DNA of 64,000 nucleotides from Branchiostoma floridae. Its lineage: Eukaryota; Chordata; Leptocardii; Amphioxiformes; Branchiostomatidae. Numbering within the stretch: the first letter of the stretch is position 1; each line of letters opens with the position of its first letter. The stretch covers positions 479,344 to 543,343 of the forward strand of contig NW_023365789.1 in the NCBI RefSeq assembly GCF_000003815.2, given 5' to 3'. Both the position numbers and the translations under genes were made by a program. The notes beneath the pieces were generated by a model. The model had not been told where the DNA came from. It did not search any database and worked only from the letters and a program-made list of their open reading frames with translations. Below are positions 2,600-55,514 of this stretch, piece after piece.

Positions 2600-3221
2600 T
2601 TATTTAGCCTTCGGCCTCTTTACAAAAGAATCCACCATCCTCACCAACTGCTCAAACAGCACCCCCTTCCACGGGTCCTCGTCCTGAGCTTTGGCCATGT
2701 TGATGTAGATGAGCTGCGCGAAGGGGATGGACATGGGCCCGGGCGGCGGCCATGTTGTCTTCTCCAGCATCACGGGGATGATCGGTGTCTTCAAGGTGTG
2801 CGCAAGCGCAACTTCGTTCCTGCAGTTCGTGGACTCGGCGTAAGGGGGTGTCACGCAGCTGACAACGACCTGGACGTGAAATAATATCAGGTCCATATCA
2901 CCTTGTCTTTTTCTTTTTAGCAGAATTTTCTAAGTGATCGATGTAAGCTTTCACAGAAAGGCTTATCTGGCACAATTTATCGTCAGATCTCTTTGTTATT
3001 GTCGTGTCCTTACTTGGCCGTCAGATTACAAGCTTAATATTACTATGGCAGACTCACTCATAATTACACTTACATAATAGCTTATTCGTTCACTCACTCA
3101 AACACGCACTCACTCGCTTACTCATTCACACTCATATTCCGACTTAATCAACCCTCTTTGCTAAAGGCTCGCACTCAATCACTTTTTCTCGCACAATCAC
3201 TCATTCATTGATTGGTTAATT

Positions 3222-3253
<32 letters not shown>

Positions 3254-3452
3254 CCTTTTCTAAATTAACTCTGGCATGTATTCCTACCTTTGCCCCCCTG
3301 ATGCCCTTGTCCATCATCTCGTACAGACTGTCCCCTCCTCCCATCTGCTTGATGTCCATCCAGCAGCTGTAGCCTCGCTCCTGCAGGCGATCGTGCAGCA
3401 GCAGCACTTTGTCCTGGTGGTCCCACTGGTACGACAGGAAAACCGCATTGTG
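2600..3452 (-). CDS. Gene D exons 4 and 5: TIR domain
   Basis: Exon 3452-3288 (55 codons) encodes the first half: AVFLSYQWDHQDK (box-1-like), then LHDRLQERGYSCWMDIKQM and GGGDSLYEMMDKGI. Exon 2869-2600 continues VVVSCVTPPYAESTNCRNEV, then PIIPVMLEKTTWPPPGPMS and ends FVKRPKAK-stop. This is the TIR_2-like pattern (YQW, CWMDI, CxNEV, PIIP, WPPPGP) common in invertebrate TIR proteins. TIR domains self-assemble and recruit other TIRs; some cleave NAD+. A Glu in DSLYEMM lies close to where NADase TIRs carry their catalytic Glu, but alignment by eye is off by about one residue. The two exons join in phase 0 at AAG|GTA. Confidence 0.88.
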
Positions 3453-5250
3453 CTGCACAAAAAGGCATGGCATGGTAAGACTGTAATTTTATGGAGTACG
3501 CTAACTCTAGTTCTATCACAAATTGGTTAGAGCCGTCAATGTTTGACTCAGAAATCAGTTGTGCGTTTTATAGTGCCAATTTTGGGTCGAATGGTACAGA
3601 GTGCAAATAACGCCATGACAATACTTGCCTCGGCCCTTGTCACACCATACCGGACCATCGGCTCCACACGAGCAGTGAGTGCCGGGGTGTTGGAAACGGA
3701 AGAACCGACTGCAGCACCTACAACCTAAGAATAAAATGTTACATTACGTTAAGATCTGTCAATTCTGTCCGTAATAAGTTCAATAAAATGTTCGAATATA
3801 TAAAACATGTGTTTTCTTGACCTCATGCTGTTTCTTTGGTCGTTCAGCCACTTTCAGGCGGTCCAATCTCCTCTTGACATCTTTCGTTTCTGCAACAGAA
3901 AAAGTTAAATTTGCGTTACATATAAGGTATTCATACTGTTGGATAGGGTGATCGAAAATAACGTCAAGTAACATAAAACATCACAATGGAAACAATTCTT
4001 TACAAGTCATTACAAGCATTACAAACCGGGACGCATGTAATACTTCGGAGAAGAACGCAAACTTCGGCTGAAGATAGGGTTTTTGATAAATTTCAACTGT
4101 CTAGTGTATGTCGCTTTTAAAGCTGTTCCTTGTCTTCGTACATAAAACAGATATCTACAAACACTACACACCAAGCTTACTGAGAAAAAATAGGTAAATA
4201 ACCTTTCTCAGCCTCCTGTTTCAGGAACGCCATGATGGCGCCGGTCCCTTGTTTACACACATCCTGTGGAGGGTATGCCAGGGGGGTTCTAGAAACATCC
4301 AAGTCCTCCAGCTTGTCTGCTCGGTGGAGGGCGGTTGGGAGCCTAGTGATGTTGTTGTTCCTTATGTGCAGTTTCGCCATGGCAGGTAGTTCACACAGGA
4401 CGTCTGGGAACGTGTCGAACTTGTTGTTCCAGAGTTGGACCACCCTTAGGTTGTGCAGGTGACTCATGGTGCTCGGCAGGGTTCTGAGGAGGTTCTTTTC
4501 CAATGCCAAGAGCCACAGGTGTTGTAAGTTTCCCACTTCATCTGGAACCATGTCAAACTTGCAGCCACCAGCGTACAGTTCCTCCAGTGTCTTCAGCTGC
4601 AGCACCTGTCTGGGGAACTCATCAAACTGGCAGTTGGGGAAACCGAGAGTCTTCAGCCTGGTGAGTCGTGTGACGTCATCGGGGAGACGTCTGATGGGGT
4701 TATTTCCGACACTTAACACCTCAAGGTTAGGGAGCGAGCACACCCCGGAGGGTACCTCCGTCAGCTGATTATCACCAATGTACAGTTCTCTCAGTTTCTG
4801 CAGCTTTTCCACACCACGAGGGAAGGTGGAAAGCTTGTTATTACGGACACTTAACACCTCAAGGTTAGGGAGAGAGCACACGCCTGAGGGTACCTCCGTC
4901 AGCTGATTATCCTTAATGGACAGTACTTTCAATTTCTGTAGCTTTTCTATGCCAGGAGGCAGGTTGGGAAGTTTGTTACTATAAACGTACAGATGTGTCA
5001 ATTTCTGCAAGGAACCGATCGCCTGTGGCAAACATGTCAGCAAGTTGCTATAAGCGTCCAAACGGTAAAGTTTCTGCAGACGGCCGATTGTTTCCGGGAT
5101 GCTGTTTAGTTTGTTGTTGGACACATCTAGAACCTCCAGGTCAGTGATACCAAACACCTCCTCCGGGATGGACGTCAGACCCTGGTTACTCAGGTCAAGG
5201 GTCAGGAGACCGTTGACGATCTGGGGCTGGAGGTTCGGACCTGCCGCCAT
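2600..5250 (-). CDS. Gene D: LRR-TIR protein, 5 coding exons, 548 aa
   Basis: Minus-strand exons: 5250-4203, 3889-3822, 3724-3629, 3452-3288, 2869-2600 (stop TAA at 2600-2602). Exon lengths of 1048+68+96+165+270 give 1647 bases with the frame open throughout and matching phases (1,0,0,0), which is strong evidence for the model. The product has about 13 LRRs (residues 1-349), a short basic linker, a small Ser/Ala-rich segment and a C-terminal TIR domain (about residues 405-520). No signal peptide or membrane segment is visible, so a cytosolic LRR-TIR sensor or adaptor is inferred. The chosen start has a good context (AACATGG) and is shared by the three paralogues. A CAG acceptor lies 12 bases upstream in phase 0, so an upstream exon is possible. 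It differs from genes A-C only after the LRR exon, where the death-domain/kinase tail is replaced by TIR. Confidence 0.88.
3629..3889 (-). CDS. Gene D linker exons 2 and 3 (second intron is GC-AG)
   Basis: Exon 3889-3822 (68 nt, phase 1 to 0) encodes a charged basic segment, ETKDVKRRLDRLKVAERPKK. Exon 3724-3629 (96 nt, phase 0) encodes a Gly/Ser/Val-rich 32-residue piece starting VVGAAVGSS. The donor of the second reads GAG then GCAAGT, the classic GC-AG intron consensus; no GT donor in the vicinity keeps the frame. These replace the acidic and coiled-coil linkers of genes A and B and have no visible similarity to them. Exon calls rest on phase consistency and splice signals, not on domain recognition. 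Confidence 0.65.
4203..5250 (-). CDS. Gene D exon: leucine-rich repeat domain
   Basis: This exon encodes residues 1-349, almost entirely 23-residue LRRs of the short LxxLxxLxLxxNxLxxLP type with typical segments such as [20 protein letters not shown]. The C-terminal cap contains [20 protein letters not shown], as in the sister genes. Only one complete 46-residue (two-LRR) unit of the paralogues' internal array is present (4771-4908). The exon ends GAGAAAG before GTTATT, a weaker donor than the GTGAGT/GTGAGG/GTGGGG of the sister genes, but phase 1 is kept and the next exon fits. The LRR surface is presumably a ligand- or partner-binding module; the partner is unknown. Confidence 0.9.
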
Positions 5251-6686: not shown

Positions 6687-6807
6687 ATTCTTCAAGCAAA
6701 GGTTTGGTCGCGGAGACAATAGTGGTCGGGATTTTTACCGTCTCGCTCCCCTCAAAAATCCCAGCCACTACTACCTCCGCGACTGACCCAACGTCTGCTT
6801 GGAGAAT
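6687..6807. repeat. Foldback repeat, family 1
   Basis: Inverted arms starting ATTCT(T/C)CAAGCA and containing TCGCGGAG and AGTGG(T/C)(C/T)GGGATTTTT. The loop contains ACCGTCTCGCTCCCCTCA, which recurs at 60340-60363. Confidence 0.65.
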
Positions 6808-6821
6808 ACCGTATCCATACT

Positions 6822-6866
6822 TGATCTTTAAACGCCAGTGGGAGGTGGCACCAGGTACAATGTACA
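6822..6866 (-). promoter_or_regulatory. Degenerate copy of the conserved upstream block, upstream of gene D
   Basis: Keeps the CACTGGCG core and the GTACATTGTAC dyad, but the nuclear-receptor-like half is changed (CGTTTAAAGATCA at 6822-6834), so a DR1 protein would not be expected to bind well. It lies about 1.6 kb from the gene D start codon. Confidence 0.3.
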
Positions 6867-7104
6867 AAGATAACGGCCCTACCCTACCAAAATGGCAAAC
6901 ATGCCGCACTAGGGGTTTTAGACGTGACTTGTTCAACTTTGATGTTAGTTAATAATGACGAGCTTTTTGATAATACGTTACATCAGGATTTGAGGACTGA
7001 ATGCGATAAAATTTAAATTTGTATTTCCAATGACAAGTCACATCGTATGGCATGTTCGTTACAAACCCAACATGTTTAGAAATAGCCAACACTGGTATTA
7101 GAGT

Positions 7105-7206
7105 AGAATATTGTTTATAATTGTTCATTGTCACTTGTATATCTACTATGTTTATACCATGTATTTGCAATTAGCCCTCGGGCACGAACTTGCAAATAAA
7201 CTTCTT
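7105..7206 (+). mobile_element. 3' end fragment of the same retrotransposon family
   Basis: The tail motif GCAATTAGCCCTCGGGCACG then AACTTGCAAATAAACTTC in intergenic DNA between D and A. It is heavily 5'-truncated, with no coding sequence visible. Confidence 0.6.
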
Positions 7207-18105: not shown

Positions 18106-20855
18106 CTTCATCTTCTCCACAGTGATGATGGCCTGTCGAATCTCCTCCCGGCTAAACCTGTCCTTCACATGGCGGAGTCGGTCAGCACAGTCTGGGGAGG
18201 GGAGACAAACATATCATGTTGTCAGGTAATAGATTATATTTATAGTCTTTTTGTATTTCACTTGTGAGGAGTAACGTAGTTGCTGGTGACCAGAAAGCAG
18301 ACTATATTTATAGAAGGTCTCTTAGTTTTCTATTCGTTTGAATTAGTGTTCTGGTAAGGTCATGTTTCAAATACAGTACAGAGCCTATATTCTGACTGCT
18401 CAATGGTACATTATACACGCGAGGCTTACCATAGTTCTCTTAGTTGCTCGTTGTATCAAGTTCTACAATAACATTTGGTCATTGGTAACAACGAGGAACA
18501 AAGGGACACAGTTTTCCGAGGATGTCTTGCTTTATACGCGGGTCAGGACAGATATAGAGGTAACGTTATCAGTCTAACATGAAGCTATGTTTCTCACCGT
18601 CAAATATGCTGGACAGGAAAACATAGAGGTCTAAGTTTGATATGAATGTATCCTTACCGTCGAATGTGGGCCTGTCCTCCGGGTTCTGACTCCAGCATGT
18701 CTGCATCAGTTCGCTCACTGACGTCACGTCCTCCCGGTCGGTGGGGATCAGGGTCAGGTCAGGTCGTTGACCCATGGTGACCGCCATGGAGATCAGGGCC
18801 GAGTTGGCAGCAACTGGTAACAAAGGTAGATAAAAATCGTGCAGTTATCAGGAGTTCAACGACCAAATACCACACGCAACCGTAAGTACATTCCTGTAAT
18901 GATGATAAGTTGCATAGGATGCAAGTCTACGCTAAGGCCTGTAGTAGATGAAGTAGTATAACATCATGAACTCAACTCACGTGCATACGGCTGCCTTCTA
19001 GTAACAATCTCCCACAGCAGCACCCCAAAGCTGAAACCAATAAGAATGCACAATATTGAGCGGCAAGATGTTGTGATGGTAATTATTACATAGGTTTGTA
19101 GAACAAGAAGAGGAACATACTAAATTACGCTTTACCTGATAGAAAAATCGGTCTAGTTATTTAGAAAGCCCTTAAAATGTTGCATTTTGAGAAAATACAA
19201 TATAACTGGGTAAGAAAGTTTTCCTATAAGTAATTTGAGGTAATTTTGAAAATACCATCAGTACTAGCCTACTTCTTACCTGTAGACATCAAACTTGGTG
19301 TTGGGAACCAGGTTGATGTTCGAATGGAACTCCGGCGGCGCATGCGTGATGGTGCTTCCTTCCGGGCTGGTTTTAGTGACGACACGAGATTCGGCTTTCC
19401 ACTTGGACAGTCCGAAGTCTGAGATCTGATAAGTGATATACAGAATCAAATTTTATCACTAGCATCGTTTGAAGTTTATGAGTTGACTGACTGAGCATTA
19501 CTACTGCAGTCTTCGTTGTCATATGAGTCATAGTTTGTATAGACTGACTGACTGACAGACAGTAGTTGTTAGAAGGTATTCGGCGCGGACCGGTGCTTCC
19601 CTTTCAACTTAAGAAATGAAATTCGATTGCGGTCATGTAATTGGCAATTTTTCCATAATGATAATCCAACGAAATGGTTTATAAAGACCTTAGCAGGTAA
19701 TGTTGCAAGTTGTACCTTCACGTGGAAGTCCCCATCCAGTAGCACGTTCTCTGCCTTCAGATCACAGTGGAGAATCTGCGGGTTCTGGCAGTGCAGGAAA
19801 GTCATCCCCAGGGAGATCTCGTGCGCCATTCTCCACCTCAGGGCCCAGGGCACGTCCACATCCCGCAGCAGCCCGGCCAGAGAGCCGTTCTCCATGTAGG
19901 GCATCACGATGGCGAAGTTTGGGTCCAGGCAGACCCCCAGCAGACTGATGACGTGGTCTGATCGGCTTCCCAGGTTCAGTTTCCTCGCCTCAGAGTACAG
20001 AAGCTCTTGCTCACTTCCATGATAAAAATCATTGAAGGACTTGTTAATGTGGGATAAACAAAGGGAATCTCACAAGCCACTAGGCCGAATGTCGAAGCTT
20101 TTATTACTTTTCTTATATCTACTTCTCAATACATCACAGTACAGTAACATTGTTCATCAATAGTATTGATACCCAGCTTTGTTCAATGTTTCATTGACCA
20201 AGACTGGCGGGAGACAGAATAAACCGGAGTCAGTCGAAGAAGGGGGTTCGTCCTTAGAAGTGACGTCACCCAGACATTATCGTCATTAAGTTCAATGTTT
20301 ATCCTTTTCCATATTGCATGCCTGGCAACTTTGCATAACCATTTAGACGGTCGCGCCAAAACAAGAGAAGAAAGGTCATTTAAATAGACATGGTTAACAC
20401 GGAAAAGAGAAGGAAAAGAACAAAACAGACCTTCCTTCGATTTTGCGAGTTAGCAGCCGTTTGACAGCCACATGTTGTCTCCAGTCCTGATGATGGGCCT
20501 TCTCTACAGCGGCGAACCCCCCACGGCCGAGAACGGGCTCTTGCGGAAAGTTGAGTCGTTCAAACTCAATGATAGGAAGCTTCCGGTCTACCGTCACGCT
20601 AGGGTATCTATTGGAAAATATGGCATATACGAAAGATAATATTAGCAAGCCGTTTTATATATTACATAATATTCATTATGCCTTCCCCCCCCTCCGTCTG
20701 CTTTTTAAACAGGGACCTGTTTACTGAACAACCAGTTTGATCGACTGGCGAAAATTCTACTCAGTCGTTCCTACTCACCTCCTCTGCACCTCACCCAGCA
20801 GCTGGCCTCCGACTGCTCCGCTTTCTTCTGACTCATGTCCTCTGCGAGTCGGGCT
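18106..20855 (-). CDS. Gene A kinase exons: RIPK/TKL-like non-RD kinase
   Basis: The linker exon 20855-20779 leads into kinase exons 20607-20431, 20013-19716, 19425-19280, 19030-18981 and 18813-18658, then a C-terminal exon 18191-18106. Visible motifs: G-loop LGRGGFAAVEK, beta-3 lysine in VAVKRL, alpha-C Glu in SEQELLYSEARK, hinge MPYMENGSL, catalytic loop [25 protein letters not shown] and [11 protein letters not shown]. Catalytic Lys, Asp and DFG Asp are kept, so activity is expected. The HRD arginine is Cys, making it a non-RD kinase. The closest family by motif is RIPK/ANKK within the TKL group. The last exon encodes an Arg/Lys-rich helix (EEIRQAIITVEKMK). Confidence 0.88.
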
Positions 20856-23800
20856 CTAATAGGCAACACACAAGAGATCCTTTATATTGACAGTAATTCT
20901 TTCGTTGATTTGTTTTCCAAAGGAATTCTATTTGATAGAAATGACGAGTTGATTCTTCTTTCAATGTGTTGTTTACACTTTCAACACAGCCGAAAATTAC
21001 TGACAGCTAGCAGCATGGGAATATTTCATTTGAATATCAACCCCAAACGAACTATAAACCATTCCTTGAAATTCATCATCATCGTTTCTTCCATGCCCTT
21101 AAAATTACTGGTACACAAGGTGATCTGACCATAGCCGTCCTGGTGATCTGGTCTGCCAGCTGGTGCAGGTCCAGGTCCCTCAGACACCGCTCCAGGACAG
21201 CCAGGCTGGCAGCAGGACCGGCTCGCTCTCTCCATCTTACCAGCGTCTCGTACATCGGTTCGTCTGGACTTTCAGACTTGATATATAAACACAAAACATA
21301 ATGGATCTATTAGAGGTGTATTTCGAATCGACTTTGGAAGACTAGCATGTCGCTTAATGTGCAAATCAGGCACTTTGTTTTAAATACTACAAAGGGAAAA
21401 TGTGCAAATGTTCCTTCCCCTTCGAACAAATGGAATACTTGATATCGCAGTATATGATGTTCTAATGACCTCCTACACAAGTACCATACTGCAAAACCAA
21501 CTACGCATCAGAAATAAGACTAGCATGAAAATGGAATAGGATAATGATTAATCAATTGATGTGTCTAAGTCTAGAATTCTATTTATATAGATATGGGACA
21601 AAGTTATTTGAATATTGAAGATACCTCAATGTCTTTAATCTCCTGTTTGCTGAAGCCCAACTCCCGGGCGATGGGTCTCCACTGGTTCTGTCCCACCTTC
21701 AGAGACAGGCGGTTAAAGGCTTGGCGAAGTTCCTTATCTGTGGAATAAGAAGGCGGTCTGCATTATGTGTTGTTGTCAAACAAGTATTTCAAGTTACTAA
21801 GGCTGTAAGCTAACATTGCAATAAGAGGTCGGTCTGCAGTATGCGTAGGTGCTCTTTTAAAACAAGTACTTCAAGTTAAGGGTATAAGCTAACAAAAAAG
21901 TATCCAAAAACACATTGTAAATCTAATCTTTAAGATGAACTCAATATTTCGTAATATCGTCCCAGTTGAAGTTAATCCAATGGTTAGTTGTGATCTAATA
22001 TGTTATCTGGCTGCAGTTTATCTGTAGAATATCGCCGCGATATAATGTAGTTGTTTTTAAGTCCAAAATCAATGTCGACGTCAAGATGCCAATATAATAA
22101 TTACTTGTTGGAAAGTCATTGACTAGATTAACTGAGAATTTCAACGACGCATTGTATTACGCTTCGTGATATCAAAGTTTAGAAATAGATTCTACTTTCA
22201 GGTGCAATATTTTCGCAGCTACTACCGTCACATTGCAAAGGTAATTTACTGAGCAAACTGTACATGGCGAGGTTTTGGCCATTAGCTCACCCACTTAAGC
22301 TTAGACTACATCATGCCGTTAATATTACCTTGTGCTGTGTCGTATTGCGTAAGTTGTAACGTTGGCGGTTGTTTCCGTGATACACCAGTCCGTGCTGCAG
22401 TACCTGCTGCCTGGGGTGGTAGTGGTGCCGCGCCTTTGGACATTAAATGACGAAAAGTTATTGGATACTCACCAGTAATATAAACTATACAATTTTACAC
22501 ATTCTCTGTCCTAAGCATTATATTTTAGCTATCTAAAAATAGTGATCATTAGATATGTATAAATATGTCTAATCACCTTTTCTTGTGCCCATTCTCTCTG
22601 CAGTCTGGCCCCTTTGTTGGCTGACTTGTTGCTCCATCCGGGCACTTTTCTCCCTTCTCTCCCGTAACTTCCTCTCCAGTTCGGTCTCTGCAGCGGGCTC
22701 CATGATGTCAGGTTGACGTGCAGCTGTTTATAGTATAAAAATTTATGTCTTAGTTACATCATTTTGCCATGAATATTAGATACAAAATTTCGTGTATGGA
22801 CTTGCAATAGAAACCAACACTCGGCAAATACTCGTAGACATACCCGTTTCTGACATTGGGTCATTTCCAAATTTTGCTTTGCTTTGTAAAAGGAACAAAA
22901 ATAATTTTTGGGCATTCTAGAGGGTAACAATTTTTGTCTTTATGTTTAATTTGGTTGATTTTATCATACCTGTGGCTTTGTTAGTTGTTCTACTTTGCGG
23001 CATAATAAAAGGCGAGACCTTGACGCTTTACCAAAGTTGTGGACTTTAGATAAAACCTGTTTAAGGTCTCATTGATGAGTTTCTTCTTCCCATAGACTTC
23101 TATGTATTAATTCGTGGTTTAAATGGGCGCGTTCATAATGAAGCTACGTGAAATTTCAGCAGATTTTTCATTCTATGTCGAGCACATTTACCCTATATCG
23201 TGGGAAAAATTGCCAATGTAAAGTATACGTAGGAACTTTTTTTATAGCAATTACAAACTACGATTAGTCAATCCCCACAAAAGGCACTTTTTCGCTGCTA
23301 TTGTACAACCGCACCACTCAGAACCCACGACTGTGTACCTCCGACCTAGCGCGCGGCTGCTAAACTTTACCTGCTAATTTCTTCAGTTACAAATAAGCTT
23401 TCACCAATCTAACTTTTGAGATCAGTTCCGCTGGCTAAAAGGGAATTTCTCACCGCTAAAAACATGCGTCCGTGCAGCCGTTCATTTTTGGCTCGGATCT
23501 CTTTTAGGGTGTCCACTCGCGGAGTAATACATCAATGAGACCTTAATATGCTCAAGTAACTTTATTTACCGACCTTTAACAGGTGTGGCTTCTACATCTC
23601 GGATTTCATTAGTTCCTTTGCCTGCTGCTGAACCCTTCTCCTCCTCTTGTCCAGCTTTTGTTGTTTTCTCTGTATATGATGAACCAACAACATATAACAA
23701 ATTTGTAAGGCATTCAAGTATGTGAAAGTGAAACCTAGAAAGACTAACAACATATCGAATTTCAGAAAATGGCTGCTAGTACCGGCTGCGCGTGCGTAAC

Positions 23801-36400: not shown

Positions 36401-37053
36401 TCAGCAACCGTTTGACAGCCACATGTCGTCTCCAGTCCAGATGATAGGCCTTCTCTACAGCGGCGAACCCCCCACGGCCGAGGAAGGACTTTTCCGGAAA
36501 GTTGAGGTGTTCAAACTCGATGATAGGAAGCTTCTTGTCAACCGTCACGCTCGGGTATCTGTCGGAAAATATGATGTATCGTACATATATGAAAGGTAGC
36601 ATTAGCAAGGCGAACTGAGATGAAGCCAATGTGCCAATGTGATGGTTTTCGATTCGTTATACATTTGCATTCATTTGTCGGTAATGTGTTTTAGGTCATG
36701 AAATAAAAACGTGACGCATTCACAGGACAATGTGTGTGGTCAACGGAAGAAAGGCAATGCACATAGCAGAAACAGCCCTTTTGGGATCTTTGAACAACAA
36801 CATTATGTTTGTGAAGTTGCGGAAAAGGCGTCACCTTATATTCTAATATGTCGTATTAGACTGCGCAAATTTAGTGAGCGCGATCAGAAACAGCCTGCTA
36901 TTCAAAGGAGAGTACGTTTACAACAAAAGACAGCTTGTATACTGGAGTATGATGAAGGCAAGCCGTACGTACTCACCTCCTCTGCACCTCACCCGGAAGC
37001 TGGCCTCCCACTGCTCCGCTTTCTTCTGACTCATGGCCTCTTCGAGTCGGGCT
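33500..37053 (-). CDS. Gene B kinase exons: RIPK/TKL-like non-RD kinase
   Basis: Linker exon 37053-36977, then kinase exons 36558-36382, 36025-35728, 34784-34639, 34325-34276, 34055-33900 and C-terminal exon 33585-33500. Motifs: [79 protein letters not shown] and [13 protein letters not shown]. Catalytic residues are intact; HCD replaces HRD. The acceptor of the DFG exon reads GCTAG with a weak pyrimidine tract and lies in the intron that received a retrotransposon fragment, so splicing efficiency there is worth checking. Confidence 0.86.
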
Positions 37054-40000
37054 CTAATAGGCAACACACAAGAGATCCTTTATATTGACAGTAATTCTTT
37101 CGTTGATTTGTTTTCCAAAGGAATTCGATTTGATGGAAATGGCGAGTTGATTCTTCTTTCAATGTGTTGTTTACACTTTTAACACAGCCGAAAATTACTG
37201 ACAGCTAGCAGCATGGCAATATTTTGATTGAATATCAACCCCAAACGAAATATAAACCATTCCTTTAAATTACTGGTACACAAAATAATCTGACCATGGC
37301 CGTCCTGGTGATCTGGTCTGCCAGCTGGTGCAGGTCCAGGTCCCTCAGACACCGCTCCAGTTCAGCCAGGCTGGCAGCAGGGTCGGCTCGCTCTCTCCAT
37401 CTCACCAGCGTCTCGTGCATCGGTTCTTCAGGACTTTCCGACTTGATATATAAACACAAAACATAATGGATCTATTAGGTGTATTTCGGATCGACTTTGG
37501 AAGATTAGCATGTAGCTTAATGGGCAAATCAGGCACTTTGTTTTAAATACTACCAAGAGAAAATGTGCAAATGTTCCTTCCCCTTCGAACAAATGGAATA
37601 CTTGATGTCGCAGTATATGATGTTCCAATGACCTATTACACAAGTACCATACTGCAAAACCAAAAATAAGACTAGCATGAAACTGGAATAGGATAATGAT
37701 TAATCAATTGATGTGTCTAAGTCTAAAATCCTATTGATGTGAATGTAATACAAAGTTATTTATATACTGAAGATACCTCGATGTCTTTAATCTCCTGTTT
37801 GTTGAAGCCCAACTCCCGGGCGATGGGTCTCCACTGGTTCTGTCCCACCTTCAGAGACAGTCGGTTAAAGGCTTGACGGAGTTCTTTATCTGTGGAGTAA
37901 GGTGTTGGTATGCAATATGTTTTCAGTTCAGTTCAGTCATCCTTGTCAGGTGACACTATAAAGTCCTTCCAGACGGCTCTGTCGCTCATGACAGACAGGA
38001 GGTCTCCATCTTGGAGGCCAACAAACATCCTCCAAGACGGAGAAGTTCCTACTAATATGCTTAGGTGCTCTTTTAAAACAAGTACCTCAAGTTGCTAAGG
38101 ATATAAGCTAACAAAAAAGTATCCAAAAACACATTGCAAATCTAATCTTAAAGATGAACCCAATGTTTCGTAATATCACCCTAGTTTATCCAATGGTTAG
38201 TTGTGATCTGATATGTTATATCTGGCTGCAATTTATCTGGAGAATATCGCCGCGATGTAATGTAGTTGTTTGTAAGTCCAAAATCATCGACAAGATCCAA
38301 ATACAATTACTTATGGGAAAATCATTGACTTAACTGAAACTTTTAACGACGAAGTGTATTACACTGTGGTGATATCGAAGCTTAGAAATAGATTCTGCAA
38401 TGTTTTTACAGTTAGTTTTTGCAGTTACTACGGTCACATTGCAAAGGTAATTTCCTATGGAAACTGTACATGACGAGGGTTTGCCATTAGCTTACCCACT
38501 TTAGACTACATCGTGTCGTCATTACCTTGTGCTGTGTCGCCTCCAGTCAGTTTTAACGTGGTCGGTTGTTTCTGCGCCAGACCAGCCCATGCTTCAGTAC
38601 CTGCTATTTGGGGTGGTAGTGGTGGAGAATAAATGACATACAGTTATTGGATACGCACCAGTAATATAAACCTGGCTGTGTATCCTGAACAGCCAAACCA
38701 ATAAATAAAAAAATAAATATAAACTATACAATTTTACACATTCTCTGCCCTAAGCATTATATTTTATCTATCTAAAAATATTGATCTTAGATATGTATAA
38801 AAATGTCTAATAACCTTTACTTGTGTCCATTCTCCCTGCAGTTTGGCCCCTTTGTTGGCTGACTTGTTGCTGCATCCGGGCACTTTTCTTCCTTCTCTCC
38901 CGTAACTTCCTCTCCAGTTCGGTCTCTGCAGGGGGCTCCATGATGTCAGGTTGACGTGATGCTGTTTAGAGTATAAAAATTATGTATTAGGTACATCATT
39001 TTCCCATGAATATAAGATACAATATTTCGTGTATGAACTTGGAATAGGAACCAACACTGAGCAAATACTTGTAGACACGTTCGTTTTTGACAATTGGCCA
39101 TTTTCAAGTTTTGCTTTGCTTTGAAGTTTTTTATTCGTTTAGCGGTTCCTAAAAACAGACGACATTATAAACATTCAAAACAGATAACGAGGCACGGTTC
39201 AAAGAAAACTAAAAAGAAAAAATAATGATGGTAATAATTCTAGCTTGTATCTTTAATTTGGTTGTTTTATCTTGATCTGTTCTGATTATTACAGCTTGCC
39301 TTTGATTACTGTCGGCAAACGTGTAGTTGTTCTCCTATGAGGTAAGATGATACGTTATCAGTCAACGACTGTTCAGAACATTAATAGAAATTTAGTTACC
39401 GACCCTTAACAGGTGCGACTTGTACAGGTGCGACTTGTACAGGTGCGACTTGTACAGGTGCGACTTGTACAGGTGCGACTTGTACAGGTGCGACTTGTAC
39501 TTCCTGAGTTCCTCTGCCTGCTGTCGAGTCCTTCCCCTCCTCCTCCTGTCCAGCTTGTTTTGCTCCTTCTGCAGCAAACCATTTACAACACATAACAAGG
39601 ATTTAACTAAAGCAATAAGTGGCAGCATGCTCGAAATGTCAACAATAAAAAAACTAGCAGAAGGCTGTCAGTGCAGTCTTCTTAGCAACAACGTACATGA
39701 AGGGTAATGTCGTACACATTTTGAAATAAAAGTATCAGATGTAACAAAAACAGTTCATTTTGTGTGTGGAGATGTAGATTTAGAGTAAAAATAGAAAACA
39801 TCAGCAAACTTTCTTTGTCCACCCAAATTGTTTAAATATACTTTAGTAGTTGTAACCAACATTTTTCCTGTATCATGATTTAACCTAACATGCCTCACCT
39901 TTCTCAGCCTCCTGTTTCAGGAAGGCCATGATGGCGCCGGTCCCTTGTTTACATACATCCTGTGGAGGGTATGTCAGGGGGTTTCCAGAAACATCCAAGT

Positions 40001-41498
40001 CCCTCAGCTTGTCTGCTCGGTGAATGGCGGTTGGGAGCCTGGTGATGTTGTTGTTCCTTATGTCCAGTTTCTCCATGGCAGGTAGTTCACACAGTACTTC
40101 TGGGAACGTGTCGAACTTGTTGTTCCGGAGGTGGACCTCCCGTAGGTTGTGTAGGTGACTCATGGTGCTCGGCAGCGTTCTAAGGAGGTTATGTTCCAAT
40201 GCCAAGAACCACAGGTGTTGTAAGTTTCCCACTTCATCTGGGACTATGTCAAACTTGCAGCCACCAGCATACAGTTTCTCCAGTGTCTTCAGCTGCAGCA
40301 CCTGTCTGGGGAACTCATCAAACTGACAGTCGTTAATACCGAGAGTCTTCACTCTGGCGAGTCGCGTGACGTCACTGGGTAGACGTCTGATGGGGTTCTT
40401 GGCGACATTTAACACCTCATGGTTAGGGAGCGAGAGCACACCTGAGGGGACCTCCGTCAGCTGATTACTATTAATGTGCAGTTCTCTCAGTTTCTGCAGC
40501 TTTTCCACACCAGGAGGGAAGGTGGACAGCTTATTGTTATCGACACGTAACAACTCAAGGTTAGGGAGCGAGCAAACACCTGAGGGTACCTCCGTCAGCT
40601 GATTACCATAAATGCCCAGTTTTGTCAGTTTCTGCAGCTTTTCCACACCAGGAGGGAAGGTGGAGAGATTGTTGTTACTGACATTTAACGCCTCAAGGTT
40701 AGGGAGCGAGCAGACGCCTGGGGGTACCTCCGTCAGCTGATTATCATGAATGCCCAGGTCTCTCAGTTTCTGCAGCTTTTCCACACCAGGAGGGAAGGTT
40801 GAGAGTTTATTGTTACGGACATTTAACACCTCAAGGTTAGGGAGCGAGCACACCCCTGAGGGTACCTCTGTCAGCTGATTATCATTGATGTGCAGTTCTC
40901 TCAGTTTCTGCAGCTTTTCCACACCAGGAGGGAAGGTGGAAAGGTTGTTATTACTGACATCTAACACCTCAAGGTTAGGGAGCGAGCAGACGCCTGGTGG
41001 TACCTCCGTCAGCTGATTACCATAAATGTACAGTCCTTGAAGTTTCTGCAGCTTTTCCACACCAGGAGGGAAGGTGGAAAGCTTGTTCTTACTGGCATCA
41101 AATTTAACAAGGTTTACACAGGAAAATATTTTAGTAGGAAGTTTCGTTAACTTATTATCCCTAACAAATAGCCATTCCAGCTTTTGTAAAGCTTCCAACC
41201 CGTCAGGCAACTCACTTAGATTATTGCTATAAACATATAGCTCTTGCAAGTTTTGCAAGGAACCGATCGCCTGTGGCAAACTTGTCAGCATGTTGCCGTT
41301 AGCGTTCAAACGGGAAAGTTTCTGCAGACGGCCGATTGCTTCCGGGATGCTGGTTAGTTTGTTCTTGGACACATTTAGAAACTCCAGGTCAGTGATATCA
41401 AACACCTCCTCCGGGATGGACGTCAGACCCTGGTTACTCAGGTCAAGGGTCAGGCGACCGTTGACGGTCTGAGGCTGGAGGTTCAGGTCTGCCGCCAT
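33500..41498 (-). CDS. Gene B: LRR-linker-death domain-kinase protein, 13 exons traced
   Basis: Minus-strand exons: 41498-39899 (LRR), 39568-39404, 38961-38815, 38600-38526 (linkers), 37889-37777 and 37441-37295 (death domain), 37053-36977 (linker), 36558-36382, 36025-35728, 34784-34639, 34325-34276, 34055-33900 (kinase) and 33585-33500 (C-terminal). Total 3237 bases, 1079 codons, no frame break. It is the tandem-duplicate paralogue of gene A with an identical exon plan; downstream of the LRR every exon has the same length except the first linker (165 vs 96 nt). Two retroelement fragments sit in its introns (about 34.15-34.22 and 34.83-35.56 kb). The terminal coding exon was not found. By architecture it would be a cytosolic LRR sensor with death-fold and kinase output. 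Confidence 0.88.
34150..34216 (+). mobile_element. 3' end fragment of the same retrotransposon family
   Basis: GCAATTAGCCCTCGGACAAG followed by AACTTGCAAATAAAC, the tail of the family seen at 34829-35560, here on the plus strand in another intron of gene B. Confidence 0.6.
34829..35560 (-). mobile_element. 5'-truncated non-LTR retrotransposon (CR1/L2-like) in gene B intron
   Basis: On the minus strand an open frame ending at 35063 encodes a reverse-transcriptase C-terminus with a zinc-finger-like end: CKIRISAHPLEVEKGRY, then CTYCPSNAVEDESHFI and SFYDDIRNQL. The frame enters from upstream without an ATG. The 3' tail reads CCCTCGGGCAAGAACTTAC and ends in AATAAA-rich sequence. It lies in the intron between the catalytic-loop and DFG exons of gene B and is absent from genes A and C. 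Confidence 0.75.
37295..37889 (-). CDS. Gene B death-domain exons
   Basis: Exons 37889-37777 and 37441-37295 have the same lengths and phases as in gene A. The first encodes KELRQAFNRLSLKVGQNQWR, then PIARELGFNKQEIKDIE; the second continues MHETLVRWRERADPAASLAE and LRDLDLHQLADQI. The fold is a death domain. Differences from A are few and conservative (S to N after GF, GP to DP), consistent with a recent duplication that remains under constraint. Confidence 0.86.
38526..39568 (-). CDS. Gene B linker exons, including a coding minisatellite
   Basis: Symmetric phase 1-1 exons. 39568-39404 (165 nt) encodes an acidic start (GQEEEGKDSTAGRGTQE) followed by six consecutive VQVAP-type pentapeptides, the product of six perfect 15-bp repeats (39411-39500). 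38961-38815 encodes the charged coiled-coil-like segment (ETELERKLRERRKKSARM). 38600-38526 encodes LAQKQPTTLKLTGGDTAQ. In gene A the first linker has one degenerate pentapeptide copy (EATPV), so the expansion is specific to B. The frame stays open through the repeat because its length is a multiple of three. Confidence 0.75.
38675..38718 (+). mobile_element. Very short 3'-end retroposon insertion in gene B intron
   Basis: About 43 bases (CTGGCTGTGTATCCTGAACA, then AATAAATAAA tail) interrupt sequence that is contiguous in gene A near 22480. ATATAAAC is present on both sides as a probable target duplication. Confidence 0.55.
39411..39500. repeat. Coding minisatellite, six perfect 15-bp units
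   Basis: Six identical copies of AGGTGCGACTTGTAC on the plus strand lie inside gene B's first linker exon, encoding repeated VQVAP on the minus strand. Perfect identity implies recent expansion or polymorphism. Confidence 0.95.
39899..41498 (-). CDS. Gene B exon: leucine-rich repeat domain
   Basis: The ATG is at 41496-41498 (AACATGG context), giving 533 residues of LRRs and ending GAGAAAG before GTGAGG (phase 1). It has four complete 46-residue LRR-pair units (40467-41018) plus two extra divergent LRRs upstream (SELPDGLEALQKLEWLFV, then LPTKIFSCVNLVKFDASK) that genes A, C and D lack. The frame stays open far upstream through the CA-rich intron to about 41822, apparently because the microsatellite happens to contain no stop; the splice acceptor just before the ATG argues that this extension is not translated. 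Confidence 0.9.
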
Positions 41499-49068: not shown

Positions 49069-49084
49069 TATGAAGTAAAATTAC

Positions 49085-51864
49085 CTTCATCTTAACCACA
49101 GTGCTGATGGCCTGTAGAATCTCCTGCTGACTAAATCCGTCGATCAGATGGTGGAGCTTGTCAGCACAGTCTGAGCGGGGACGAGAAACATCACCTTACA
49201 TCATGTTGTTTGGTAAAGCCCCCTTTACAAATCAAGAATTTAGCTCGGCCGAGTTGTCAGCGAGCTCTAGATTACGAGGAGGTATGACCCTGATGCCAAC
49301 GAAGAAACTCTGCCATTTGTTCTTAGGCATCAGAGTCATGCCTCCTCGTAATTTAGAGCTCGCTGACAACTCGGGCGAGCTAAATTCTTGATTTGTAAAG
49401 GGGGCTTAAGGAATGATTTTTAGTGTACTATACCGGTGTGAACTAACAACGTGTGTGGTAACAATAGAAGAAGCAGGTAATTACTGATGCTCTTAGAAGG
49501 CCTCTGGCTTTTTTTCCAGTTGCAGTTTATTTAGTAAGGTTTCAAATACAACTCAAGCATAATGGTTGCTTTCTTAAATCTCCATGCTGAATAACATACA
49601 CACGAGGCTAACCACAGTTTCCTCAATAGTTGGTGTAGAGATAAAGTTCTGCAATACGATTTGGTCATTCTTAATGACAAGGAACAAAGGGACTTGATTT
49701 GTTGGTCTGAAAGCTAATAGTTTTAGTTAGTACAAGGATAGTCATAGCGGTCCTTATAGTACGACATGAAGAAATACGTCTCACCGTCGAACGGTGGCCT
49801 GTCCTCCTGGTTCTGGTTCCAACATGTCTGCATCAGTTCGCTCACTGACGTCACGTCCTCCCGGTCGGTGGGGATCAGGGTCAGGTCAGGTCGTTGACCC
49901 ATGGTGACCGCTATGGAGATTAGGGCCGAGTTGGCAGCAACTGGCAAGGAAGCAAGAAGGAAAAGAGTTTGAAATGGAAATTAGAACAATCAAAAGCATA
50001 GAAATCAATAGCACCCAATATAGAATACAGTATGAATCATGTACTCACGTCCATAGGGCTGTGTTCTAGTGACAATCTCCCACAGCAGCACCCCAAAACT
50101 GAAACCAATAAGATGCACATTGGAGCGCATTGAAAATTACTGCACGGTGCACCAGACAAATTTTACCTGCACCACTCTGAATTTGGGTATGGTATGTAAG
50201 TATGGGTCATAATTAAATTGTTGAGGAACCATTGCTATTTTTTCTTTTATACGTAATAGGTGGGGTGTGGTAAGAGTCAATACAGCTAATAGCAATCCAT
50301 ATATACCTACATCATGGGATATTTATGTCTAAAATCTAGTACCAGGACCAGTGCAGGTTATGTGCACAGAGACACCATAAAGCACAGCTGAATATGTAGG
50401 TGGGATTTTGAGCCCTTTACATGTACATTATTCAGTTTTTCAAACTGCGACAAGCCAATAAAATCCATCTTGAATATTGAGCATTTTGAATCTAGTATAG
50501 GGATATCAAAAATACGATTTACAGTAATGGTTGATTCAGTACCTGTAGACATCAAACTTGGTGTTGGGAGCCAGGTTGATGTCAGCAAAGTACTCCGGTG
50601 GCGCATGCGTGATAGTGCTTCCTTCCGGGCTGGTTTTGGTGACAACACGAGATTCGGCTTTCCACTTGGACAGCCCAAAGTCTGAAATCTGATATGCAGA
50701 ATCAAATCCAAATAGTTTTAACACTAGCATGTTTAAAGTTGTATGAGTACTGTAGTCTTCGTTGTCGTTTGTTTCCGCAGAGTCATAGTCTATATAAAGT
50801 CATAGTCTGTATAAAGTGACTGGCAGTAGTTGTAAGGTTTGAAGGCAATTGTGTTTTCTATATGCGAAATGAAATTCGATTGCGCATACGTAGAAATGTC
50901 TGTAACCGGCAATTTTGCAATGATGACAATCTAAGGAATGGTTCCCAAAAGAGTCATTCTTATCTTCTTTCAACATCAACATTGGCAAGGAACGCTACAA
51001 TCTGTACCTTCACGTGGAAGTCCCCATCCAGTAGCACGTTCTCTGCCTTCAGATCACAGTGGAGAATCTGTGGGTTCTGGCAGTGCAGGAAAGTCATCCC
51101 CAGGGAGATCTCGTGCGCCATTCTCCACCTCAGGACCCAGGGCACGTCCACATCCCGCAGCAGCCCGGCCAGAGAGCCGTTCTCCATGTAGGGCATCACG
51201 ATGGCGAAGTTTGGATCCAGACAGACCCCCAGCAGACTGATGACGTGGTCTGATCGGCTTCCCAGGTTCAGTTTCCTCGCCTCGGAGTACAGCACGTCTT
51301 GCTCACTTGAGGTATAAAAAACATAACAGAAAAATGTTTTGCATTTGTTCTTTAAGTGTAGGTCATTTACTTTGATAACCACTAATGTGTGCAGATTGTA
51401 TAACGTTCGAGCTATCGTGATACTAGTAAGCGTAAATTAAAGACATCAGACCCTGACCTTCCTTCTATCTGGCGAGTAAACAGACATTTGACAGCCACGT
51501 CCTGCTTCCAGTCCAGATGTCGGGCTTTCATTACGTAGGCGAACCCCCCACGGCCGAGAATGGACTGTTCCTCGAGTCGGTCAAAATGGATGATGGGAAA
51601 CTTCTGGTCAACCGTGACGCTGGGGTATCTCCTCGCGCTGGAAAATACATCATCAGAAATGATCTATATGTGCAGGAATATTCTACTTCATACTAGCTAG
51701 AAGGAGTTGCTTTACATGGAACTGATTTGTTGTCAAATTGCCCTTGACTTGCCTTATATATCTAACAGACTTTGAATATTATCATACCTGTTCTGCAGCG
51801 CATCTTTCTCTTGGCCATCAACTAAACCGACGGCTCCAGTTTCTTGGCCTCTACGGTCTGGGGT
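49085..51864 (-). CDS. Gene C kinase exons: RIPK/TKL-like non-RD kinase
   Basis: Linker exon 51864-51788; kinase exons 51637-51458, 51305-51008, 50688-50543, 50098-50049, 49940-49785; C-terminal exon 49170-49085. Motifs: [93 protein letters not shown]. Catalytic Lys, Asp and DFG are intact and HCD replaces HRD. The first kinase exon has two in-frame acceptors (TTTTCCAG giving start 51637, or GAG giving 51628), a three-residue alternative. The second kinase exon is nearly identical to those of A and B, whereas the G-loop exon is not, which suggests patchy gene conversion. Confidence 0.86.
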
Positions 51865-54800
51865 CTGAGGAAAAGTGGTGTTTTACTTGACAACTTAATG
51901 AAATTCACATATTCCTTTTCTTGGTTAACAAATTGTGGCTATATTAACGTAAATTATTGTCTTCATAGTGGTCATTTTAATATTTTCCCCAAAAGTAAAG
52001 ACATCAAAGTTTACATCTTCCCATAAAGTATTTGTATCCAAGACAATCATGATGTCAGAACAGCTGAACAATTACTGAAACGGCACTAGTCTAAGTCAAA
52101 ATTCAATTGTAAAGGTCACCCCACCCTGGGTTCTGGTAAAAGCTGCTCCGCCAGCTGCTGGAAGTCCAGGTCTCTGAGGTGCTGCTCCAGGGCGGAAAGT
52201 GTGGCCGCCTCACCTTCCTTCTCTCTCCACTGTTCCAGGGTCTGGTACACCTGGTCAGGAACATCGTCTGGAGCGGAAGCCTGATAAATGATTTATTGCA
52301 AATTATCATATGAAAATGATTTCATTCCAGTCCAAATCCTTCACTGATACTCCTGGCCATAAGTTGTGTCTGGAGCAGAATAAGTCATTGTAAAATATCA
52401 CATGTCAATGATTTCAATCCAGGTAAAACATCAGATGTATGTTTGTTTTGGTTACAGTTATAAGTTTATTTCTGAATAATAGTTCATGTGATAAATAAGG
52501 GTTTTTTAAATATTATTTTAAAAAGGAATTAAGATCGCGGCTAAGGTTTTTTAGATGTAAGCGTGATGAAATTATTTAAAGAAGATTGATTTTTTAAAGA
52601 CAAGCGTTGATGCTAGTTTTTCTCTATTTCTCTGTAAAGCTAGTAAAACAATCATCTCACCTTGATGGCGTCCACCGCCCTGTTGCTGAGCCCCAGGCTC
52701 CGGGCGAGAGGTTTCCACTGGGTTTGGCTCATCCTCACGGACAGGCGGTTGAAGGCACGGAGAATTCTCTCATCTTAATTAAAGAATGCTCATTTCAGTC
52801 ATTGCATATACGATATATTAATGCAATATTTTATAATATGATAAAATATGATATTATATTATATAATATGACATAATATAAGGTAACACGTGTATTTCGA
52901 TTCGCAGTGGGAATTACAAGTCTAAAGGTTTCATGATCGTGCAAAAACATTGATAAAGGTTCAAATCATAACATTTGAATGCTGGTATTGAAAGGGATAT
53001 AGTAAGAACTTTACAAATCTAATAATTCCTATGAAATATTCAACTAAAAATGTATTATACTAATGAAAACAAACTTTGACAGCCTGTCTGCAAACATGCC
53101 CCACCTTTCTCAGCCTCCTGTTTCAGGAAGGCCATGATGGCGCCGGTCCCTTGTTTACATACGTCCTGTGGAGGGTATGTCAGGGGGTTTCCAGAAACAC
53201 ACAAGTCCTTCAGCTTGTCTGCTCGGTGAAGGGCGGTTGGGATCCTGGTGATGTTGTTGTTCCTTATGTACAGTTTCTCCATGGCAGGTAGTTCACACAG
53301 GGCTTCTGGGAACGTGTCGAACTTGTTGTTCGAGAGGTAGACCTCCCGCAGGTTGTGCAGGTGACTCAAGGTGCTCGGAAGGGTTCTGAGGAGGTTCCGC
53401 GACAATGATAAGAACCACATGTGTTGTAGATTTCCCAATTCGTCTGGAACAGTGCCAAACTTGCGCCCTTCGGGTTGTCCAGCATATAGTTCCTCCAGTG
53501 TCTTCAGTCGCAACACCTGTCTGGGGAACTCATCAAACTGACAGGAAGCCACGTCAAGCAACTTCAGCCTTTTCAGTCGCGTGACGTCATCAGGGAGATA
53601 CGCGATGGGATTTCGATTAGCAATTAATCTCTCAAGGTTAGACAGCAAACAAACGCCCGGTGGAAGCTTTGTCAGCTTATTATCCGCAATGCCCAGTTCT
53701 TTCAATTTCTGTAGCTTTTCCACGCCAGGAGGGAAGGCGGAAAGCTTGTTGCTGCTGACATCTAACACCTCAAGGTTAGGGAGCGAGCACACACCTGAGG
53801 GTACCTCCGTCAGCTGATTACCATAAATGTACAGTTCTCTCAGTTTCTGCAGCTTTTCCACACCAGGAGGGAAGGTGGAGAGTTTATTATTACCGACACT
53901 AAACTTCTCAAGGTTAGGGAGCGAGCACAACCCTGAGGGTATCTCCGTCAGCTGATTACCATTAATGCCCAGTTCTCTCAGTTTCTGCAGCTTTTCCACA
54001 CCAGGAGGGAAGGTGGAGAGTTTATTATTACCGACACTAAACTTCTCAAGGTTAGGGAGCGAGCACAACCCTGAGGGTATCTCCGTCAGCTGATTACCAA
54101 TAATGCCCAGTTCTCTAAGTTTCTGCAGCTTTTCCACACCAGGAGGGAAGGTGGAGAGTTTATTATCACCGACACTAAACTTCTCAAGGGTAGGGAGCGA
54201 GCACAACCCTGAGGGTATCTCCGTCAGCTGATTACCATTAATGCCCAGTTCTCTCAGTTTCTGCAGCTTTTCCACACCAGGAGGGAAGGTGGAGAGCTTG
54301 TTGTTACTGACATTTAACACCTCAAGGTTAGGGAGCGAGCACACCCCTGAGGGTACCTCCGTCAGCTGATTACCATTAATGTACAGTACTCTCAGTTTCT
54401 GCAGCTTTTCCACACCAGGAGGGAAGGTGGAAATGTTGTTGTTACTGACATTTAACACCTCAAGGTTAGGGAGCGAGCAAACACCTGAGGGTACCTCCGT
54501 CAACTGATTATCATTAATGCGCAGTTCTCTCAGTTTCTGCAGCTTTTCCACACCAGGAGGGAAGGTGGAGAGCTTGTTTTTACTGACACTTAACACCTCA
54601 AGGTTAGGGAGCGAGCAGACGCCTGAGGGTACCTCCGTCAGCTGATTATCATAAATGTACAGTTTTGTCAGTTTCTGCAGCTTTTCCACACCAGGAGGGA
54701 AGGTGGAAAATTTGTTATTATTCGCATCCAACACCTGAAGATTAGACAGCATACAAACCCCTGGAGGTACCTCTTTCAGCTGATTATTATAAATGTACAG

Positions 54801-55502
54801 GTGCGTCATTTTCTGCAAGGAGCCGATAGCCTGTGGCAAACTTGTCAGCATGTTGCCGTCAGCGTCCAAACGGGAAAGGTTCTGCAGACGGCCGATTGCT
54901 TCCGGGATGCTGGTTAGTTTGTTTCTGGACACATCTAGAACCTCCAGGTCAGTGATATCAAACACCTCCTCCGGGATGGACGTCAGACCCTGGTTACTCA
55001 GGTCAAGTTTAAGGAGACCGTTGACGGTCTGAGGCTGGAGGTTCAGGCATGCCGCCATATTGGAATTTCCCGTCTGCATAACATACAAGGAAAGTATAAA
55101 GCCCCCGAACGCGCATTTTCCTCACATATATGTATGAAAGACACACACACGCACATCCATGCACACACATATACTCACTCTCTTTGACACAAATACAATT
55201 ACGCACACACACACACACACACACAAACATTCACGCAACAAACACACCCGCATACACGACACGGACACACGAACACACGCACAAACCTGCAAGTAGTTTG
55301 ATTCCCCTTCTTTACTGTTCTCCCGTCTGACGTAGTTCGAAGGCACGTAGCCGACCTGGTTCTTGGCGTTCCGTACGCGCCACCACAAACCGGTGTCATC
55401 CAGTAGTATAAGCCGCTCATTCTCCTTGATGTCCAGGTCGTCCACTGTCTGCGCCTCCCAGTTGAACATGGCCACGACAACCTCGTCTTTCTCGGTCATC
55501 AT
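49085..55502 (-). CDS. Gene C: (SH3-)LRR-death domain-kinase protein, 11 exons traced
   Basis: Minus-strand exons: 55514-55287 (SH3; first in-frame ATG at 55500-55502), 55073-53105 (LRR), 52773-52661 and 52280-52125 (death domain), 51864-51788 (linker), 51637-51458, 51305-51008, 50688-50543, 50098-50049, 49940-49785 (kinase) and 49170-49085 (C-terminal). From the SH3 ATG the sum is 3447 bases (1149 codons) in one frame. From the LRR ATG shared with the paralogues (55056-55058) it is 3216 (1072 codons). The three linker exons of A and B are absent: the LRR exon splices straight to the death domain, still in phase 1. An acceptor precedes the SH3 exon, so further 5' exons are likely. The terminal coding exon was not found. 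Confidence 0.82.
49217..49406. mobile_element. Foldback MITE with TAA target duplication (Harbinger-like), 190 bp
   Basis: Arms of about 80 bases are nearly perfect inverted repeats beginning AGCCCCCTTTACAAATCAAG, with direct TAA on each side (49214-49216 and 49407-49409). A 3-bp TWA target duplication is characteristic of PIF/Harbinger elements. It sits in the last traced intron of gene C and has no coding capacity. Confidence 0.8.
52125..52773 (-). CDS. Gene C death-domain exons
   Basis: Exon 52773-52661 (113 nt) encodes [20 protein letters not shown], then [17 protein letters not shown]. Exon 52280-52125 (156 nt) encodes [20 protein letters not shown] and [17 protein letters not shown]. 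The death-fold pattern and intron position match genes A and B, but the sequence is clearly more divergent, so C split off earlier than the A/B duplication. It follows the LRR exon directly. Confidence 0.86.
53105..55073 (-). CDS. Gene C exon: long leucine-rich repeat domain
   Basis: About 656 residues from the acceptor (start TGNSN, then [14 protein letters not shown]) to GAGAAAG|GTGGGG. It contains eight complete 46-residue LRR-pair units, 53682-54785, the longest array in the window. Three adjacent units share the diagnostic variants [12 protein letters not shown] and LEKFSVG and are nearly identical at the DNA level, which points to recent unequal exchange or gene conversion. The other units carry [12 protein letters not shown]. 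The N-terminal and C-terminal caps match the sister genes. If the SH3 exon is not used, translation would start at 55056-55058. Confidence 0.9.
53682..54785 (-). repeat. Eight tandem 138-bp LRR units in gene C
   Basis: Eight in-frame 138-bp units, each two LRRs. The related arrays are 40467-41018 (gene B, four units), 24524-24937 (gene A, three) and 4771-4908 (gene D, one). Identity between neighbours is highest in the three units carrying [10 protein letters not shown]. Confidence 0.9.
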
Positions 55503-55514
55503 GAAGTCCAACTC
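55287..55514 (-). CDS. Gene C N-terminal exon: NCK-like SH3 domain
   Basis: A 228-nt exon (76 codons, phase 0 to 0) with acceptor CTGCAG and donor CAG|GTTTGT. It encodes [15 protein letters not shown], then [36 protein letters not shown] and YVRRENS: a complete SH3 with AMFNW in place of ALYDY, the WW, and the G(Y)VPSNYV end. The pattern is closest to the first SH3 domain of NCK adaptors. The donor joins in frame to the LRR exon 214 bases downstream (acceptor TATGCAG at 55074-55075). Alternatively it could belong to a separate NCK-like gene or transcript; no other SH3 or SH2 exon is visible nearby. SH3 domains bind proline-rich ligands. Confidence 0.68.

Follow-up and report, generated by a model that had tools for sequence, protein, structure and literature searches.

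In the usual view, the immune receptors of animals diversify on the sensor side and share a few fixed outputs. In the amphioxus Branchiostoma floridae, RIPK homologues with leucine-rich repeats (LRRs) and the architecture LRR-DEATH-Kinase are known, with eleven RIPK homologues in one region (PMC9573974), and a lancelet expansion of RIPK2 (PMC11747288) and amphioxus domain shuffling (PMC2575513) have also been described. Furthermore, bacterial LRR-AP-GTPases with variable effectors, GT4 effectors, and GT4-TRADD-N-LRR proteins have been reported (PMC8195603). In this study, we analyzed a stretch of 64,000 nucleotides of B. floridae, hereafter the window (C231:479344-543343), located on contig NW_023365789.1 (C231; 615,078 bases) of a 513-Mb genome assembled in 431 contigs. 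The window carries four LRR units, A, B, C, and D (Table 1), and probably belongs to a large tandem array whose genes encode intracellular receptors of innate immunity with interchangeable outputs.

Plant TIR/NBS-LRR resistance clusters combine tandem LRR genes, a TIR output, and a variable concave face, all of which are common to the array, with unequal exchange, which is proposed for the array; however, plant NBS-LRR proteins contain NB-ARC, which was not found in the proteins scanned (D, the tails of A and C, and loci on contigs C18 and C19), and the domain order differs. Toll-like receptors have a signal peptide, an ectodomain LRR, a membrane helix, and a TIR domain, and the pair LRR and TIR was also identified in D by Pfam. 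Bacterial LRR-AP-GTPase conflict proteins resemble the array in their LRR head and exchangeable C-terminal domains, including TIR and GT4, but have an AP-GTPase-COR core where the array has a death domain (DD) (PMC8195603). The same source describes a cephalochordate GT4-TRADD-N-LRR protein, uniting GT4 and LRR in one amphioxus chain as here, with GT4 first and LRR last, whereas in our loci the order is LRR, death domain, and then GT4. Exon shuffling of candidate LRR immune receptors is likewise known in brown algae, where the genes are ROCO GTPases, unlike those of the array (PMC11378527).

The LRR-DEATH-Kinase architecture by itself is not new, since the published amphioxus homologues share it with units A-C (PMC9573974). 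An earlier note on this DNA had regarded LRR-DD-kinase beside LRR-TIR as no standard vertebrate architecture. No report of the mixed array, its joints, the mosaics, or LRR-DD-GT4 was found in the open-licence literature (supplements being outside the search), which is weak evidence of novelty. The available parts of PMC9573974 and PMC11747288 are without TIR units in the array, a count near 35, joints, death-domain subtypes, mosaics, or concave-face variation, and that of PMC6526094 holds nothing on a mixed array or joints. One published SH3-LRR-DEATH-kinase protein fits unit C in its SH3 and first LRR positions (in our model the LRR starts near 92), but its LRR is much shorter than that of C; it is probably the same unit. 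The first of the published proteins might, in our view, be a read-through between neighboring units.

Results

Gene models were built by hand from open frames and splice sites. All four were free of internal stops and used AG acceptors and GT donors, save one GC donor in D. The earlier note had proposed four minus-strand LRR paralogues ending in TIR in D and in death domain-kinase in A, B, and C; this observation is confirmed, and its interpretation is partly supported. Regarding the domain search it had suggested for the four proteins, Pfam, run on the whole of D and on the tails of A and C, confirmed D (LRR, and TIR_2 at 3.1e-25) and both tails, and B was assigned by exon comparison, its tail matching that of C and its death-domain exons those of A. 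No CARD was detected in the tails of A and C, no ROC-COR module (a ROCO/AP-GTPase trait) in D or these tails, and no NACHT or NB-ARC in the same proteins at E up to 0.01.

Compared with solved chains, the kinase of C retrieved RIPK2 first (6.8e-59), and RIPK2, RIPK4, RIPK3, or RIPK1 took up the best 32 of 60 rows. A kinase domain closest to RIPK1-4 denotes the RIP kinase family, but the layout is not that of RIPK1 and RIPK2 (kinase, then CARD or death domain, without LRR), the order here being LRR, death domain, kinase. PF01582 gave no match on C231, although the domain of D is TIR_2; the TIR of D gave none among solved chains at 0.001 with phmmer, and a TIR profile weakly matched SARM1 and bacterial TIR chains (4e-5 to 0.04). 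TIR NAD hydrolases of the SARM1 type are marked by a catalytic glutamate and by their activity.

Beyond what the earlier note had seen, the window holds only 4 of about 35 units on the contig. Using the C-end of the LRR exon as query, at least 119 matches were found genome-wide (a lower bound, 150 of 1348 candidates having been scored). On C231, 37 were present at E ≤2.2e-44 among the matches listed, corresponding to about 35 exons because the members of two pairs adjoin each other (350/351 and 583/584 kb). Apart from the 583/584-kb pair, every one lies on the minus strand. Kinase exon K2 had 24 matches on C231, one of them partial, and TIR exon 1 had seven.

A head-tail label was given to 31 units, named here by their position on C231 (16 from exon searches of the sequence, one from a reading of frames, and 14 from match coordinates), with death-domain subtypes a, as in A and B, and c, as in C. 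The kinase units comprised 8 a-kinase, 13 c-kinase, and 1 with an intermediate first death-domain exon (DD1), and the TIR units 2 a-TIR, 3 c-TIR, and 2 without death domain (D and the 162.9-kb unit). The remaining two units are of subtype a; the one at 427.5 kb shows no output before the next LRR (tail-less), and the one at 13.6 kb lies upstream of a GT4-conflict exon. Among the labelled units, the LRRs of those at 30.5 and 220.4 kb are broken, and the units at 350/351, 260.0, 261.6, and 583/584 kb fall outside the labelled set. At C231:350135-351500, two LRR stretches of the family adjoin and are followed by a long assembly gap.

The LRR exon ended in phase 1 in 20/20 exons read on C231, including 4/4 in the window, as the earlier note had stated. 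DD1 started in phase 1 in 14/14 and in both GT4 loci read, and the second death-domain exon (DD2) ended in phase 0 in A, B, C, three DD-TIR units, and the C18 locus, being followed by a linker (0-2) before the kinase, a mid exon (0-0) before TIR, or a linker (0-1) before GT4. The outputs in these models diverge at this second joint, phase 0, after the death domain. The same note had stated that any phase-1 tail can be spliced to the LRR exons in frame; the LRR-to-DD or LRR-to-pre joint is indeed in phase 1, but kinase and TIR are in general not attached directly there, the output switch lies at the phase-0 joint, and D gets to TIR via two small exons (pre and mid) without death domain. Since the pre exon of TIR units (1-0) is phase-equivalent to DD1 plus DD2, splicing may choose between them, yielding predicted non-clustering or clustering forms. 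Both forms were open in 3/3 DD-TIR units modelled (58, 100, and 154 kb), the pre form of the 154-kb unit requiring a GC donor.

Traces of exchange between heads and tails were also identified. All four pairings of the two death-domain subtypes with kinase or TIR are present on C231. By gapped alignment, D and the 162.9-kb unit, 320 kb apart, were 90.7% identical in the LRR part (775 bases), 98.0% in the intron, pre, and mid (751 bases), 99.4% in TIR exon 1 (165 bases), and 58.6% beyond it (345 bases); compared with the 100-kb unit, the 162.9-kb unit was 36% identical before TIR exon 1, 99.4% within, and 94.8% beyond. As its sequence reads, the 162.9-kb unit is a mosaic in which D-like pieces are combined with 100-kb-like ones, and the 98% tail under 91% LRR heads is apparently a trace of exchange (head vs. 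tail identity, Fisher p 3e-10, with counts derived from rounded identities); the LRR of D is 90-91% identical to several further units too.

Moreover, in an LRR tree of 35 rows (30.5 and 220.4 kb excluded; rough bootstrap), sisters carried different tails, namely 154.5 (a-TIR) with 42.3 (c-kinase), support 96/92, and 13.6 (GT4 downstream) with 325.9 (a-kinase), support 100/100. Likewise, the LRR C-ends of the 231.8-, 136.4-, and 203.5-kb units were 99% identical, but K2 of the 231.8-kb unit matched K2 of the 472.6-kb unit at 99.7% identity and K2 of the other two at 94-95%. On this tree, output required 6 changes (27 labelled units, 7 TIR; as few or fewer in 273/500 shuffles) and death-domain subtype 9 (26 units; as few in 379/500). 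On the K2 tree, subtype required 4 changes (20 units; as few in 32/500), suggesting a tendency to linkage between subtype and K2.

Distances between LRR C-ends were not significantly correlated with those of DD1, DD2, K1, or K2 (r 0.02-0.06), K3 (0.35), or K5 (0.20). This non-correlation was dropped as proof of exchange at the joint, because in the control the N-end and C-end of the LRR exon were equally uncorrelated (r -0.04, n=14; two C-end halves 0.09, n=33). On the same grounds, reshuffling is general, and splice joints need not be the only sites of exchange. The tail-exchange reading of the earlier note is supported by the four pairings, the tail shared by D and the 162.9-kb unit under dissimilar heads, and the sisters with different tails. 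DD1 and DD2 correlated at 0.91 overall, 0.04 within c (n=6), and 0.80 within a (n=7), mostly reflecting the split into two subtypes.

Exon K2 (window 19716-20013, 35728-36025, and 51008-51305, minus strand, and K2 exons elsewhere on C231) differs much less between units than do exons K3 and K5 of the same genes, with silent divergence (dS) of 0.16 against 0.62 for K3 and 0.44 for K5. K2 distances do not track those of K3 and K5, as if K2 had been homogenized by itself.

Variation within the LRR was compared in 153 repeats from 16 of 18 LRR stretches, using only the columns left free by the repeat pattern. The tested set was positions 3, 5, 7, and 8 of LxxLxVxxN, which by the usual numbering we take to be the concave face. 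By replacement change per site (pN), this set ranked 1/1001 four-column sets in odd repeats and 3/1001 in even repeats. The ratio to silent change (pN/pS), which compares paralogous repeats and units and is not a codon-model test, was 2.80 (odd) and 0.95 (even), vs. 0.29 and 0.45 in the other free columns. In the fixed C-end (17 rows), pN was 0.231 at concave positions vs. 0.055 elsewhere, with 0/300 random sets as high. Replacement change is concentrated on the predicted concave face, as in diversifying LRR receptor arrays; a second trait of such arrays is a replacement rate exceeding the silent one at these positions, for which the values here are mixed. Mean dN/dS, in groups of equal length with rows containing N or stops removed, was 0.02-0.39 in tail exons and 0.47-0.49 in the LRR C-end.

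The third candidate output and further relatives lie partly off the array. The GT4-conflict profile PF20706 gave 57 matches (226-286 bits), six of them 1.4-1.6 kb downstream of LRR relatives on the same strand (four on C18, one on C5, one on C11). Two of these six loci were read, and both had LRR, two death-domain exons, and GT4 in order; at the C18 locus, Pfam identified LRR, Death (8.6e-10), and GT4-conflict (1.3e-73). With four LRR-death domain-GT4-conflict pairs, C18 is possibly a second cluster. PF20706 alone is not specific to conflict systems, since 14/14 control genomes have matches. The GT4 exon of C231 follows the 13.6-kb LRR at a distance of 6.5 kb, has the same start phase as the C18 GT4 exon, and is likely part of the 13.6-kb gene. 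Alternative tails also exist off the array, as a C19 locus carries LRR, death domain (Pfam 1.1e-12), and TIR exons in order. The order LRR-DD-output recurs on C18, C5, and C19.

Discussion

In the mechanism that we propose, a typical array protein would start with an LRR head, followed in most cases by a death domain, and would end in a single output. This output would be a RIPK2-like kinase, TIR, or, possibly, a glycosyltransferase of the GT4-conflict type. The head would bind ligand via its concave face, binding would cluster the receptor by the death domain, and proximity would activate the output that it carries. Sensor, adaptor, and effector, which other systems divide between separate proteins (NOD receptor and RIPK2), would thereby form a single chain. 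Unequal crossing-over and gene conversion between units would reassort heads, death domains, and outputs. With phase kept constant at both joints (1 behind the LRR and 0 behind the death domain), such exchange would be tolerated. The array proteins are most likely cytosolic sensors; their expression, location, and splicing, including the exon joins, are inferred, as are binding of a ligand, clustering, activity of the enzymes, and a role in immunity. A hydrophobic frame noticed by eye before the pre exon in two TIR units was rejected, as it runs into a stop.

Going further, and with rather less assurance, we tentatively suggest a germ-line plug-in receptor array in a chordate. A diversifying LRR head would be recombined, at two phase-locked splice joints, with either death-domain subtype and with a kinase, TIR, or glycosyltransferase output, and in TIR units the use of the pre exon or of the DD exons may also decide whether the receptor clusters. 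If this is true, a single crossover could rewire the same recognition surface to a different response. Among the closely related sensors of this one array of an invertebrate chordate, the output itself varies, which parallels bacterial conflict proteins. It is thus testable whether an output change of one sensor alters the response, and whether such changes segregate in natural populations.

Several observations weigh against these proposals. Silent change in the C-end was also raised at concave positions (0.337 vs. 0.129), where pN/pS was 0.68, and pN/pS exceeded 1 in just one of the two repeat classes. Resolution of the LRR tree is poor, with 21 of its 32 inner branches open, the two ends of a single LRR exon are as uncorrelated as LRR and tail, and a tendency to correlation between LRR and DD2 is present within subtype c (r 0.50, p 0.057, n=6). 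Furthermore, the array contains broken and partial units, and models and function rest on sequence.

Alternatively, two or three gene types of ancient origin (LRR-DD-kinase, LRR-DD-TIR) might have been duplicated in blocks and partly lost, without continuing exchange of heads and tails. This would agree with A and B being long block duplicates and with the presence of LRR-DD-TIR and LRR-DD-GT4 off the array, by which the tail types are old; it is nevertheless improbable, since all four subtype-by-output pairings occur, the 162.9-kb mosaic weakens it, and output labels are scattered over the LRR tree. The units could also be separate LRR-only genes alternating with death domain-kinase and TIR genes, the joined models being read-throughs. 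The joins are indeed read from sequence, and homologues with kinase only or DEATH-Kinase have been published too (PMC9573974), but the agreement of LRR donor and DD1 acceptor phases, the recurrence of the order on three other contigs, and predicted proteins in the same source that unite LRR, DEATH, and kinase, in one case together with SH3, in a single chain make this quite doubtful.

Modular receptors of a non-immune kind, serving, e.g., self-recognition or tissue signalling, seem unlikely; the immune role of the array itself is inferred, but known systems use RIPK2-like kinases, TIR, death domains, and GT4-conflict as modules of immunity or conflict (PMC8195603), and the concave face is variable. 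Least probable is an assembly artefact in which the contig mixes haplotypes or mis-joined repeats. C231 has many N gaps, and a near-exact local duplication adjoins a gap in the window; however, the borders of the 162.9-kb mosaic sit in gap-free sequence, A and B are about 92% alike along long flanks, and the off-array relatives lie on long contigs. We continue to favor an immune receptor array with exchanging outputs.

Other features of the window

The coordinates of units A-D are listed in Table 1.

Table 1. Predicted features of units A-D (positions in the window).
Feature	Position	Strand	Evidence
Unit D model, 5 exons including stop	5250-2600	-	
Unit D LRR exon, coding part, ends phase 1	4203..5250	-	Open frame, splice sites; Pfam LRR
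Unit D pre exon, phase 1 to 0	3822..3889	-	
Unit D mid exon, phase 0 to 0, GC donor	3629..3724	-	
Unit D TIR exon 1	3288..3452	-	Gene model, Pfam
Unit D TIR exon 2 and stop codon	2600..2869	-	Gene model, Pfam
Unit A model, 10 exons, last short exon outside model	25207-18106	-	
Unit A LRR exon, coding part, phase 1	23947..25207	-	Gene model
Unit A death domain, 2 exons, subtype a	21130..21737	-	Pfam Death 2.8e-15
Unit A linker exon and six kinase-region exons	18106..20855	-	Pfam kinase 3.2e-47
Unit B model, 10 exons, last short exon outside model	41498-33500	-	
Unit B LRR exon, coding part, phase 1	39899..41498	-	Gene model
Unit B death domain, 2 exons, subtype a	37295..37889	-	Exon search, gene model
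Unit B linker exon and six kinase-region exons	33500..37053	-	Exon search, gene model
Unit C model, 10 exons, last short exon outside model	55058-49085	-	
Unit C SH3 exon, in frame with LRR exon (phase 0)	55287..55502	-	SH3_1 2.3e-10
Unit C LRR exon, coding part from internal ATG, phase 1	53105..55058	-	Gene model
Unit C death domain, 2 exons, subtype c	52125..52773	-	Pfam Death 8.8e-15
Unit C linker and six kinase-region exons	49085..51864	-	Pfam kinase 6.2e-46; RIPK2 closest

The SH3 exon upstream of the LRR of C, a further addition to the earlier note, had one other genome match at E up to 1e-8, 73% identical, in a frame of 428 residues on C12 that we take to be an NCK-type adaptor; a capture at the N-terminal end as well is possible.

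Between the kinase exons of unit B, an open frame of 172 residues (window 35066-35581, minus strand) presumably resembles the tail of a retroelement protein. A 610-base N gap is adjoined by two direct repeats that are nearly exact (window 9270-11093; 303 bases at 100% and 522 at 98%) and are perhaps an assembly duplication.

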